Source of the DNA: Sphingomonas sp. RIT328
GTDB taxonomy: Bacteria > Pseudomonadota > Alphaproteobacteria > Sphingomonadales > Sphingomonadaceae
Assembly (NCBI RefSeq): GCF_000632225.1
Contig: NZ_JFYV01000034.1
Location: 124,001 to 188,000, forward strand
Reading direction: 5' to 3'
DNA length: 64,000 bases
A program made the translations under genes and the position numbers. The notes beneath the pieces are model-generated. The model saw only the letters and a program-made list of their open reading frames with translations. It did no database searches and had not been told where the DNA came from. The number at the start of each line of letters is the position of its first letter. Position 1 is the stretch's first letter. Positions 21,922 to 62,784 of the stretch are shown piece by piece.

Positions 21922-22015
21922 ATGTCATCCCCGCGCAGGCGGGGATTCATATACGCTGACGCTTCGACTCTTGCCTGAACCTGCGCGTTTGGATCCCCGC
22001 CTGCGCGGGGATCAC
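21922..22015. repeat. Palindromic repeat related to family A
   Basis: TCATCCCCGCGCAGGCGGGGAT near the left end and ATCCCCGCCTGCGCGGGGATCA at the right are near-perfect mirror images about 50 bases apart, and each also folds on itself. It resembles family A in its pair of hairpins but lacks the core CCAGTGGCCAAGCAG. It lies between the convergent ends of nadB and the TPP enzyme, so it may also act as a bidirectional terminator. Confidence 0.7.
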
Positions 22016-29867: not shown

Positions 29868-30328
29868 GCGGCTGCCGGGCGTTTCCCGCGAAGCGGCGAA
29901 GCCGCAAAGCCGCGAAGAGGGCGTGGATGCGGGGCCCTGCTCTCTCTGAATTTGAGGGTAGAGACGGCATCCCCCGAACACCTTCTCCGCGCCTCCGCGC
30001 CTCCGCGTGAACTCTGGTCTTCGCGCCTTCGCGTCTTCGCGTGACCCTTCGTCCTTCTGCGAATGAAGCCGACGACGTTGGTTCACGCGGAGGCGCGGAG
30101 GCGCGGAGAGTTGCTTGCGGAAGCGGCGTGGCTCATGCGGGCGCACGGCCAAGACCAGTCCTCGGCCGGTAAGATGTCTGCAGAGCCATATTCGTGCTCC
30201 CGCACAGGCGGGAGCCCAGTGTTCTTCGTGCCGCAGACCGTCGCCCTGCTTGGCCACTGGATCCCCGCCTGCGCGGGGATATGGCTTTGGCTTGGACTAT
30301 CGCGCCACCGCCGGCGGCGCGCCCGCGA
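29868..30328. repeat. Long gap filled with repeat families A and C
   Basis: No gene is visible. CGAAGCGGCGAAGCCGC-type tracts (29886-29915) and CCTCCGCGCCTCCGCGTGAA (about 29992-30011) face GTTCACGCGGAGGCGCGGAG (about 30082-30101), so family C forms a large inverted pair with 70 bases between. A family A element follows at 30194-30294. The gap lies between the convergent flippase and purH genes. Confidence 0.7.
30194..30294. repeat. Palindromic intergenic repeat, family A (copy 2, inverted)
   Basis: Reading in the opposite sense to copy 1: GTGCTCCCGCACAGGCGGGA, then CCAGTGTTC, a variable spacer, CTGCTTGGCCACTGG (reverse complement of the core) and ATCCCCGCCTGCGCGGGGAT. Both terminal hairpins and the inverted CCAGTG/CACTGG pair are preserved. 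Confidence 0.8.
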
Positions 30329-46307: not shown

Positions 46308-46695
46308 TCCTGTCGGGTTCACGCGGAGGCGCGGAGGCGCGGAGGGTCGCGCCCGCGGCTGCGGTGTCCCGCGCCAGCGGGCCGCACTCTTCGTCTGCCG
46401 GATCACGGATTGCGCGTACCGGGCGAAGCCGTCTCGCGTCTTCGCGTCGTCGCGCGAATCCCCCCTGCCCGCCGCAGACTGCCGGGGAGAAGATCCACGC
46501 AGAGCCGCGAAGACGCGAAGAGGTGTCGCGCGCAGAGGCGCAGAGAGCGCAGAGGATCGCCCGGTCCGGGCAAGCGTCTCGCCCGCATCGCGATCGCAAT
46601 GCTGCCGCGCGCCAGAGGAACGCTCCGCGTCCTCTGCGCCTCTGCGCGCCAAACCCTTTCTTCTCCGCGCCTCCGCGCCTCCGCGTGACCATGAT
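46308..46695. repeat. Gap between yebC and ruvC filled with family C repeats
   Basis: No gene is visible. GTTCACGCGGAGGCGCGGAG (from 46318) faces CCGCGCCTCCGCGCCTCCGC followed by GTGACC (ending about 46690), an inverted pair about 330 bases apart. Between them are further short blocks (CGTCTTCGCGTCGTCGCGCG, GCAGAGGCGCAGAGAGCGCA) of the same kind. The right arm ends a few bases before the ruvC start codon. Confidence 0.7.
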
Positions 46696-59394: not shown

Positions 59395-61110
59395 ATGGCC
59401 GAACCCCATAACGATCCCGCCGGCGCGCCCGATCTGGCGACGTTGCAGCATTGGACCTGGCTGCTCGGCCGCGCGCAGCAGATGATGATGGAACAGGGCA
59501 TCGGCCTGCTCGGCGCGGGCGACGCATCGCCGCCGCTCGTCCGCCAGACGCAGGATTACTGGCGCGATCACCTCGCCTTGTGGCAGCGCTTCGTCGATCC
59601 CGCCGCCGATCTGCCGCCGCCGCCGCAGTCGGAGGGCGATTCGCGCGACCGGCGCTTCAAGGCCGCGGCGTGGCGCGAGGACCCGTGGTTCGACTGGATC
59701 CGGCGCAGCTACAATCTGATCGCCGACCATCTGCTGCGCGGCGTCGACGCGCTCGACGGCGTGCCCGAGGCGCAGCGCGAACAGCTCCGCTTCGCCGCGC
59801 GCGGGCTGATCGAGGCGATGAGCCCGTCCAACTTCCCGCTCACCCATCCCGAGGTGGTCGAGAAGACGATCGCCACCAAGGGGCAGAATCTGCTCGACGG
59901 CCTGCAGCATATGCTCGCCGACATCGCCAAGGGGCAGGTGACGCATACCGCCGAGGGCGCGTTCGAGGTCGGCCGCAATATCGCGACGACGCCGGGCAAG
60001 GTGATCAAGCGCACCCCGCTCTACGAGCTGATCCATTATGCCCCGACCACCGAGCGCGTGCTGGCGACACCGCTGGTGATCTTCCCGCCATGGATCAACC
60101 GCTTCTACATCCTCGATCTGTCGCCGGAGAAAAGCTTCATCCGCTGGGCGGTCGACCAGGGCCTGTCGGTGTTCATGGTGTCGTGGAAATCCGCCGACGC
60201 CTCGATGAGCGACGTGGTGTGGGACGATTACGTCGGCGCGCAGATCGATGCGATCGACACGGTGCGCGCGACCCTCGACGTGCCGGCGGTGCATACGATC
60301 GGCTATTGCGTCGCGGGGACGACGCTCGCCGCGACGCTGGCGGTGCTCGCCGCGCGCGGGCGGGACGATGCGGTGGCGAGCGCGACCTTCTTTACCGCAC
60401 AGGTGGACTTCACCGCCGCCGGCGAGTTGCGCCATTTCGTCACCGATGAGCAGCTCGCGCTGATCGGCAGCCTGTCGCCACAGGGCTTCCTCGACGGCCG
60501 CTACCTCGCCGCGACGTTCAACCTGTTGCGCGGGCGCGACCTGATCTGGAATTACGTCACCAACAATTATCTGCTCGGCGCGGATTACGCGCCGTTCGAC
60601 CTGCTCCACTGGAACGGCGACACCACCAACCTACCGGCGAAATGGCATTTGTCGTATCTCACCGATCTCTATCGCGACAACCGCCTCGTCCAGCCGGGCG
60701 CGATGACGATGGCCGGCGAATCGATCGATCTCGGCCGGGTGACGACGCCCGCCTATGTCCAGGCGGGGCGCGAGGATCATATCGCCCCGGCGGAGAGCGT
60801 CTGGCGGATCACCCATCATTTCCGCGGGCCGCTGCGCTTCGTGCTCGCCGGATCGGGGCATATCGCCGGCGTCGTCAATCCGCCTGCCGCGGGCAAATAC
60901 CAATATTGGACGAACGATGCGGCGGTGACGACGCTCGAGGATTTCGTCGCCGGCGCGTCCGAGACCAAGGGCAGCTGGTGGCCCGACTGGCGCGGCTGGA
61001 TCGAGTCGCGCGGCAGCGACACCGTCGCCGCCATCGGTGCGCGGCGCCCCGGCGAAGGCGCGCTGCCGGCGCTCGCCGACGCTCCGGGAGACTATGTCCG
61101 CGCGAGATAG
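59395..61110 (+). CDS. phaC: Poly(3-hydroxyalkanoate) synthase, class I
   Basis: A 571-residue enzyme polymerising hydroxyacyl-CoA on the surface of storage granules. The catalytic triad can be read as Cys305 in the lipase-like box GYCVAG, Asp461 in REDHIAP and His489 in GSGHIAG. The N-terminal PSNFPLTHPEV and PPWINRFYILDLSPEKSFI are class I landmarks. AGAGG lies about five bases before ATG 59395. It is followed by the phasin gene under its own promoter. Confidence 0.95.
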   Translation: MAEPHNDPAGAPDLATLQHWTWLLGRAQQMMMEQGIGLLGAGDASPPLVRQTQDYWRDHLALWQRFVDPAADLPPPPQSEGDSRDRRFKAAAWREDPWFDWIRRSYNLIADHLLRGVDALDGVPEAQREQLRFAARGLIEAMSPSNFPLTHPEVVEKTIATKGQNLLDGLQHMLADIAKGQVTHTAEGAFEVGRNIATTPGKVIKRTPLYELIHYAPTTERVLATPLVIFPPWINRFYILDLSPEKSFIRWAVDQGLSVFMVSWKSADASMSDVVWDDYVGAQIDAIDTVRATLDVPAVHTIGYCVAGTTLAATLAVLAARGRDDAVASATFFTAQVDFTAAGELRHFVTDEQLALIGSLSPQGFLDGRYLAATFNLLRGRDLIWNYVTNNYLLGADYAPFDLLHWNGDTTNLPAKWHLSYLTDLYRDNRLVQPGAMTMAGESIDLGRVTTPAYVQAGREDHIAPAESVWRITHHFRGPLRFVLAGSGHIAGVVNPPAAGKYQYWTNDAAVTTLEDFVAGASETKGSWWPDWRGWIESRGSDTVAAIGARRPGEGALPALADAPGDYVRAR

Positions 61111-61119
61111 CTCCATTCT

Positions 61120-61134
61120 TGCTGCACTGCACAA
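61120..61134. promoter_or_regulatory. Left arm of the phasin operator
   Basis: TGCTGCACTGCACAA is the exact reverse complement of the right arm at 61166-61180, 31 bases away. It lies just upstream of the -35 box and holds two CTGC half-sites. Known PhaR sites in Paracoccus use CTGC/GCAG half-sites, which makes PhaR a fair guess. Confidence 0.65.
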
Positions 61135-61140
61135 ACCGCG

Positions 61141-61169
61141 TTGATCTCGACCCCGAAAGCGGCTATTGT
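61141..61169 (+). promoter_or_regulatory. Sigma-70-like promoter of the phasin gene
   Basis: TTGATC (61141-61146) and TATTGT (61164-61169) are separated by exactly 17 bases. Transcription would start near 61176. The promoter lies between the two arms of a perfect inverted repeat, and the right arm covers the -10 box. Confidence 0.6.
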
Positions 61170-61180
61170 GCAGTGCAGCA
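61166..61180. promoter_or_regulatory. Right arm of the phasin operator
   Basis: TTGTGCAGTGCAGCA overlaps the -10 box and the expected start of transcription. It mirrors the left arm without mismatch. Binding by a repressor at both arms would block the promoter. Confidence 0.65.
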
Positions 61181-61200: not shown

Positions 61201-61851
61201 ATGGACGATCGTTTGTCCAAGCCCGCCAAACGCGGGTCGAACCGCCCGCGCGTCGACTCGCCGCCGCGTCCCCAGCGCTCCCGTGCCAAGCCGACCGGCA
61301 TCCAGCCGGCTCCGGTGCCTGCCGCCGATGCGGTGACGGCGCCGCTCCCCGTCGCGCCCGCCCCCGTCGTGGATGCGGCCGCACCGATTGCCACACCCGC
61401 AGCGAAGGAAGTCATCATGGAAACGATCGAGAACGTCACCGCCACGACCCAGACCGCGTTCACCGACGCGACCGACCGCGCCAAGGGTGCGGTCGACAAG
61501 AGCCAGAAGCTGCTCCAGGACGCCACCGAGTTCGGCAAGGGCAATATCGAAGCGCTGGTCGAATCGTCGAAGATCGCGGCACGCGGCCTCGAGTCGCTCG
61601 GCCAGGACGCCGCCGCCTATGCCAAGAAGTCGTTCGAGGACGCGACCACGGTCGCCAAGACGCTGAGCAGCGTCAAGTCGCCGACCGAATTCTTCAAGCT
61701 CCATGCCGATTACGTACGCGCCTCGTTCGACGCGCTCGTCCAGCAGAGCTCGCACAATACCGAGGCGGTGCTGAAGCTCGCCGGTGAGGTGGTGCAGCCG
61801 CTGTCGAACCGCGTCGCGCTCGCCGCCGAGAAGCTCAAGGTCGCGGCGTAA
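61201..61851 (+). CDS. phaP: Phasin family protein
   Basis: A 216-residue granule-coating protein. The phasin domain is the C-terminal 140 residues: METIENVTATTQTAFTDATD, then GNIEALVESSKIAARGLESL and SPTEFFKLHADYVRASFDAL. The first 72 residues are a Pro-, Ala- and Arg-rich extension (KRGSNRPRVDSPPRPQRSRA) unlike typical short phasins. ATG 61201 has AGAAGG five bases upstream. A second ATG at 61417, six bases after AAGGAA, would give a normal 144-residue phasin. Confidence 0.9.
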   Translation: MDDRLSKPAKRGSNRPRVDSPPRPQRSRAKPTGIQPAPVPAADAVTAPLPVAPAPVVDAAAPIATPAAKEVIMETIENVTATTQTAFTDATDRAKGAVDKSQKLLQDATEFGKGNIEALVESSKIAARGLESLGQDAAAYAKKSFEDATTVAKTLSSVKSPTEFFKLHADYVRASFDALVQQSSHNTEAVLKLAGEVVQPLSNRVALAAEKLKVAA

Positions 61852-62304: not shown

Positions 62305-62784
62305 CGCCGTAGCGGCCCGGGCGCCGAGGCGCTCGGCGATCTGTCGGACAGCGTCGGCGGCGCGCGGTGACGTCGCGCCTGCCGCGTCAGCGGTTCTTCC
62401 TGCAAATGGCAGAATGAACGACCGACATTACCACGGTCGGCCCATCCTCGCGTCTTAGCGTCTTCGCGTCTTCGCGTGACCAATCAACGCCCGGCTGACT
62501 CCGGCTCGGACCGGCTCATAGTCTCATCCTGGCGAAATGGGACGGAAGACAGCGCGCCGACCGCAACACCTCCGCGCCTCCGCGCCTCCGCGTGAACCAG
62601 ATTGCTTGCCGGTCGAAGCGCCGCGCGTGAACGCGGGAAGCTGTCGGCGAGCGCCCGACCCCATACGTCTCCGGCAAGAGGGTTTGCGCGGAGGCGCGGA
62701 GGGACAGTGTCTACCGCGGCCCCTCGCCTCCCCATGACGTCGGGAAGAAAGGGCTCCGCCAAGCCGTCCCGTCTTCCGGCCCGC
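62305..62784. repeat. Gap after clpS filled with family C repeats
   Basis: No gene is visible. CGCGTCTTAGCGTCTTCGCG plus TCTTCGCGTGACC (about 62449-62481) is a tract of family C. CCTCCGCGCCTCCGCGCCTC followed by CGCGTGAACC (about 62570-62599) is a second tract. GCGCGGAGGCGCGGAGGGA (about 62686-62704) faces it in the opposite sense, so the stretch 62570-62704 could form a long stem. The gap lies between the convergent clpS and Crp/Fnr genes. Confidence 0.65.

Follow-up and report, generated by a model that had tools for sequence, protein, structure and literature searches.

Two probable PhaR operators, conserved in sphingomonads, frame the promoter of the main phasin gene in Sphingomonas sp. 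RIT328

An inverted repeat surrounds the phasin promoter

The window, a 64,000-nucleotide stretch of the Sphingomonas sp. RIT328 draft genome, contains a PHA synthase gene (59395..61110, + strand) with a PhaC_N domain (PF07167, E 5.1e-60), for which the start codon is our own choice, and a phasin gene downstream (61201..61851, + strand; PF09361, E 3.9e-24). For the phasin gene we prefer the ATG at 61201, which is preceded by GGAGAAGG, while at another possible start, the in-frame ATG at 61180, each of the six named relatives (L036-L041) has ATA instead. Between the two genes, 9 bp past the end of the PHA synthase gene, begins an inverted repeat with the arms TGCTGCACTGCACAA (61120..61134) and TTGTGCAGTGCAGCA (61166..61180). 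The initial annotation had described a perfect 15-base repeat around a phasin promoter, with arm centres 46 bases apart, and this is what we found: the arms match in 15 of 15 bases and are separated by 31 bp, their centres (61127 and 61173) lie 46 bp apart, and the gene downstream is indeed a phasin gene. Extended to 19 nt, the arms are 95% complementary.

A promoter with a -35 element TTGATC (61141..61146, + strand) and a -10 element TATTGT (61164..61169, + strand) is predicted between the genes from the sequence, from the recurrence of TTGA/TTGC in relatives and from the recurrent position of the -10 element. The left arm lies just 5' of the -35 element, and the right arm, which had been noted to cover the -10 box, takes in the final four bases of TATTGT and extends over the likely start site. 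The promoter had been called a good one with 17-base spacing; the gap is indeed 17 bp and its elements recur in relatives, but it has 8 of 12 consensus positions and so is missing from our scan list, as the scan required 9 of 12.

By itself the perfect repeat is only moderately unusual, because among 100 dinucleotide-shuffled versions of the window, 7 contain exact 15-nt arms spaced 10-100 bp, and four further regions of the window (21927-22012, 29984-30109, 46528-46649 and 62571-62702), all G+C-rich, also contain such arms. Its weight comes from the location of both exact genome copies at the phasin locus and from its conservation in relatives. Words such as TCCGCGCCTCCGCGC are common to two of the four G+C-rich regions, and these two resemble dispersed repeats.

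Each arm resembles a PhaR binding site

Each arm is near-palindromic (TGCTGCA-C-TGCACAA, with the core TGCA-N-TGCA) and fits, on either strand, the PhaR consensus TGCRNYGCASMA, reported to have been deduced in Bradyrhizobium diazoefficiens by footprinting and by aligning promoters that PhaR binds (PMC6201568). Moreover, the right-arm 15-mer is contained letter for letter in the PhaR site of Sinorhizobium meliloti SMa1961, which is listed as efficiently bound (PMC12542648), and the arms have a single-base centre in common with the R. eutropha PhaR motif YTKNTGCRNYGCANMAR (PMC12849132). The genome encodes a single PhaR (PF07879, E 4.5e-31, on contig G000:C4).

The perfect inverted repeat was rejected as the functional unit, the inversion being exact in only 3 of the 90 family pairs and in none of the 59 pairs from other families. 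Because exact inversion is this rare in relatives, the arms are better read as two distinct operators, each a near-palindrome, than as a single repeat. The mean inverted likeness of the family pairs is 12.1 of 15 vs a direct likeness of 11.1 of 15 (inverted higher in 51, direct higher in 25, equal in 14); in other families the values are 10.5 and 10.7, so there is no inverted excess. The repeat most likely represents two PhaR binding sites flanking the promoter of the granule-coat gene.

The 15-mer is not scattered through the genome without relation to PHA genes. In the draft genome (4.34 Mb) only the two copies at the phasin locus are exact, and no other copy within two mismatches was found in the window. 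Ten further places in the genome match it with one or two mismatches: four lie before two mmgR/suhB sRNAs, a PF10503 esterase gene and a cyoA-like gene, three precede genes for an HspQ/YccV-like protein, a chemotaxis receptor and a TonB receptor, another follows a methyltransferase gene and two are unassigned. Places with up to three mismatches were dismissed as mostly background (95, vs 70 for the reversed pattern).

The operator pair is conserved before main phasin genes

A two-box pattern with boxes 22-52 bp apart matched at least 310 of the 396 genomes of the order, vs at least 8 for the reversed pattern; being strict, it overlooks weaker boxes, for example at locus L073. At the family level, a pair at 44-50 bp precedes the phasin gene in 93 of 97 regions, namely the window, the six named loci (L036-L041) and the 90 best-scoring other places, so that the regions were chosen by phasin score. 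The 93 comprise 90 found under the strict rule (sum threshold 27, up to 700 nt upstream), L075 and L078, in which the pair lies farther upstream than 700 nt, and L073, which scores 25 and was found under a looser rule. With the reversed consensus, the strict rule found a pair in 0 of 97 regions and the looser rule in 3 of 37. No pair at 44-50 bp was found in L079 and L081, which have only 215 and 363 nt of upstream sequence, nor in L083 and L251, where upstream sequence is present. Among 20 lower-scoring phasin places of the family, mostly second phasins, three have a pair (46, 47 and 58 bp), two of them at 44-50 bp. The pair thus marks the main phasin, given 93 of 97 better-scoring vs 3 of 20 lower-scoring places. 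The position relative to the promoter is also kept, with 85 of the 90 family pairs having TTGA or TTGC 13-17 bp past the left centre and 26 of 34 promoter calls placing the -10 element at offset -9 relative to the right centre. One box directly upstream of the -35 element and the other over the -10 element and start is therefore the arrangement both of this locus and of the family.

Two records deserve separate mention. The pair at 58 bp, a spacing of other families, belongs to L317 (G418:C1:2504573-2505423), from a family genome that may be deep-branching. L041 comes from a record named Arthrobacter sp. TPD3018, and its boxes and spacing are identical to those of Sphingomonas aquatilis (L040); judging from these sequences, the record name is probably wrong.

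PhaR is present in 56 of 68 chosen genomes. All 20 family genomes chosen with the two-box pattern encode it, but so do 16 of 18 chosen without it, and its presence does not closely follow the strict pattern; the genome of L251, for instance, has PhaR and lacks the pair. None of the 12 PhaR-less genomes has a phasin match, and at least three of them have two-box pattern matches, spaced 24-40 bp.

The left box is tied to the -35 element and the right box varies

In other families of the class, we found the pair in 63 of 88 phasin upstream regions and the reversed consensus in none; these regions include several per genome and leave out weak matches, some on small contigs, and the genus of the window. 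Spacings are 54-61 bp in 42 pairs, 63-68 bp in 8, 49 bp in one and elsewhere in 12. Of 24 phasin places in other families of the same order, 15 have the pair, spaced 57-65 bp in nine, 29-33 bp in five and 19 bp in one. The left box is tied to the -35 element both in the family and in the main spacing group of other families, for which 45 pairs with spacings of 40-72 bp were used: TTG starts on average 14.8 bp (85 usable of 90 pairs) and 14.9 bp, respectively, past the left centre. In contrast, TTG and the right centre are on average 32.4 bp apart in the family vs 42.8 bp in that group, a difference of 10.4 bp, and the mean pair spacing is 47.2 vs 57.7 bp. The right box thus lies about 10.5 bp, one helical turn, further downstream in most other alphaproteobacterial pairs; it covers the -10 element in the family and is placed about one turn lower, toward or over the start, in the main spacing group of the others. 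These distances hint, tentatively, at a shift of the right operator by one turn on the same helix face on the line to most Sphingomonadaceae, an event that we consider possible but doubtful. Were it true, PhaR action here would depend on its rotational position relative to RNA polymerase or to the upstream PhaR, and the site of the block would have shifted from past the start to the -10 element.

The spacing also bears on the looped repressor that the initial annotation derived from helical phasing. In such a model, PhaR oligomers on both boxes would touch, the 46 bp would be looped out and the contact would set the spacing. R. eutropha PhaR is reported to bind sigmoidally, dimer-dimer contacts and loops have been proposed for it (PMC12849132), and the spacing is tight in the family, with the commonest spacing of other families (54-61 bp) about one turn longer. 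However, at 10.5 bp per turn the 46 bp amount to 4.4 turns, which is no near-whole number and does not fit the four or five turns that had been suggested, so the box centres face nearly opposite sides. The spacings of 29-33 bp, as well as 18 and 28 bp in S. meliloti, are out of phase with 47 bp, and 18, 28, 29-33, 47 and 58 bp share no single phase; moreover, either box by itself is described as enough for in vitro binding in S. meliloti. The one-turn difference between spacing groups might seem to favour looping, a reading weakened by the 29-33 bp pairs of sister families. An apparent compensation between the box positions (0.018) proved to be an artefact of cutting the data at 54-61 bp, while a fair permutation on the pairs of other families gave 0.36 for spread and 0.18 for count, that is, no sign of boxes constraining each other. 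Because the two positions vary independently in other families, the spacing can be accounted for by promoter anchoring alone. With neither a whole-turn spacing nor a constraint beyond this anchoring, looping is left unsupported and we regard it as unlikely.

The remaining explanations fare worse. A different regulator that recognises TGCA-N-TGCA could be the one that binds the operators, as the near copies before the HspQ/YccV-like, chemotaxis receptor and TonB receptor genes might suggest, but the arms match experimentally determined PhaR sites, the target set fits PhaR, and PhaR is encoded in every chosen family genome with the pattern, although in most of the chosen ones without it as well; such a regulator is highly improbable. 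We give hardly any credence to a hairpin of both arms in a transcript that reads through from the PHA synthase gene: the perfect 15-bp arms would be able to pair, yet exact inverted copies are scarce in relatives. A terminator scan between the genes returned none, a result that is blind to a two-arm hairpin since the scan allows loops of 3-8 only. Finally, that the repeat is a chance product without function, which the frequency of comparable arms in shuffled windows might allow, has a negligible probability and is already contradicted by the conservation of sequence and position in nearly all family regions.

Proposed PhaR switch and comparison with known systems

We thus return to PhaR as the regulator, a reading that holds because of the fit to the consensus, the SMa1961 match, the PhaR gene, the near copies, the conservation in the family and a layout like that of R. 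eutropha phaP1; the resemblance of the half-sites to PhaR targets, proposed in the initial annotation, is borne out by much the same evidence. Very probably, the main phasin gene has a sigma-70-type promoter flanked by two PhaR operators and would be controlled by a switch between PhaR and the granule. In B. diazoefficiens, PHB is reported to nearly abolish PhaR binding in vitro (PMC6201568), and in the R. eutropha circuit, as reviewed, PhaR on the boxes keeps RNA polymerase away until the polymer draws it off, and phasin then accumulates to the point where PhaR is set free again (PMC9049629). More than one box may result in tighter binding, by analogy with multi-site fragments of R. eutropha phaP3, shifted by less PhaR (PMC12849132), and with the two-site phaP1 of B. 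diazoefficiens, described as the best-bound target (PMC6201568). Extrapolating binding, repression and release by the polymer from these species, free PhaR, encoded elsewhere in the genome, would occupy both boxes when no granule is present, and RNA polymerase would be unable to settle on or open a promoter with one box just 5' of its -35 element and the other over its -10 element and start. Once poly-3-hydroxybutyrate appears, PhaR would be pulled onto the granule, both operators would be vacated and phasin would be produced; phasin would then coat the granule and free PhaR again.

Ralstonia eutropha is not an alphaproteobacterium. In its strain H16, phaP1 is repressed by PhaR, with steric hindrance as the proposed means; of the two footprinted sites, one lies directly upstream of the -35 element and the other around the start, and both are reported to be degenerate palindromes that have one base at the centre (PMC12849132). 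The promoter in the window resembles this layout, with one box before the -35 element and the other at the start; a third site is predicted within the phaP1 reading frame (PMC12849132), unlike in the window, which lacks a further close copy. S. meliloti phaP1 and phaP2 are reported to have two palindromes each and mmgR a site, with binding in gel shifts, and SMa1961 one site between the -10 element and the start; by the table coordinates, the phasin pairs flank the -35 element at 18 or 28 bp (PMC12542648), unlike the pair in the window, at 46 bp with its second box on the -10 element. The two DNase I footprinted sites of B. diazoefficiens phaP1 share the consensus of the window arms and differ in place, 6 bp either side of the -35 element (PMC6201568) and, from the positions given (-101 and -72), about 29 bp apart (PMC10888616). 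The switch and the layout are hence already known, and the promoter in the window, on sequence grounds, is probably a conserved sphingomonad form of them. Among the matches listed in searches of open-access papers, neither a sphingomonad PhaR operator set nor a clade-specific place of the right box turned up. The predicted operators would extend an experimentally known granule-sensing switch to sphingomonads, and the natural series of operator spacings offers material for testing PhaR helical phasing. They also provide an operator definition for predicting the sphingomonad PHA regulon, with the main phasin, mmgR/suhB sRNAs, a depolymerase-type esterase and a cyo-type oxidase as likely members.

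Predicted boxes at other genes

A good box (16/18) at L010 1501-1515 is centred 27 nt before the HspQ/YccV-like gene, which is not known as a PhaR target. At the PF10503 gene (PHB-depolymerase-type esterase), the near copy is centred 50 nt upstream, again on TATTGT. The second phasin gene (G000:C1:179293-179574, L035) has no good PhaR box, the best score being 13/18. Before the gene that we provisionally name cyoA-like from its COX2 and COX_ARM domains (L011, G000:C27:24741-24802), the box lies on TATTTT and another, weaker one stands 47 bp farther upstream, a pair that repeats the phasin geometry; PhaR is reported to bind a cyoA fragment of B. diazoefficiens (PMC6201568).

Two of the near copies sit directly before suhB/mmgR sRNA genes (RF00519, 53.8 and 49.6 bits, gathering cut-off 41) at G000:C7:68057-68131 (L004) and G000:C30:23551-23624 (L012), each gene starting directly after its box, and in S. 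meliloti the mmgR promoter fragment is reported to be bound by PhaR (PMC12542648). The third copy above the cut-off (G000:C34:77091-77169) is without a good box, and only 2 of the 5 suhB-like matches in the genome have one. Among 30 family suhB loci, the best match of each of 30 genomes out of 50 with a match, 11 have a box of at least 13/18 within 60 nt upstream, 10 of them centred at -8, and the reversed consensus gave 0 of 30; given these 11 of 30 loci, the link between box and suhB is common, not universal. Of 30 suhB/mmgR loci (L139-L167, L106), 21 have GCANTTGCA, beginning between -31 and -33, within their upstream 50 nt; it may be a -35 region or a second operator.
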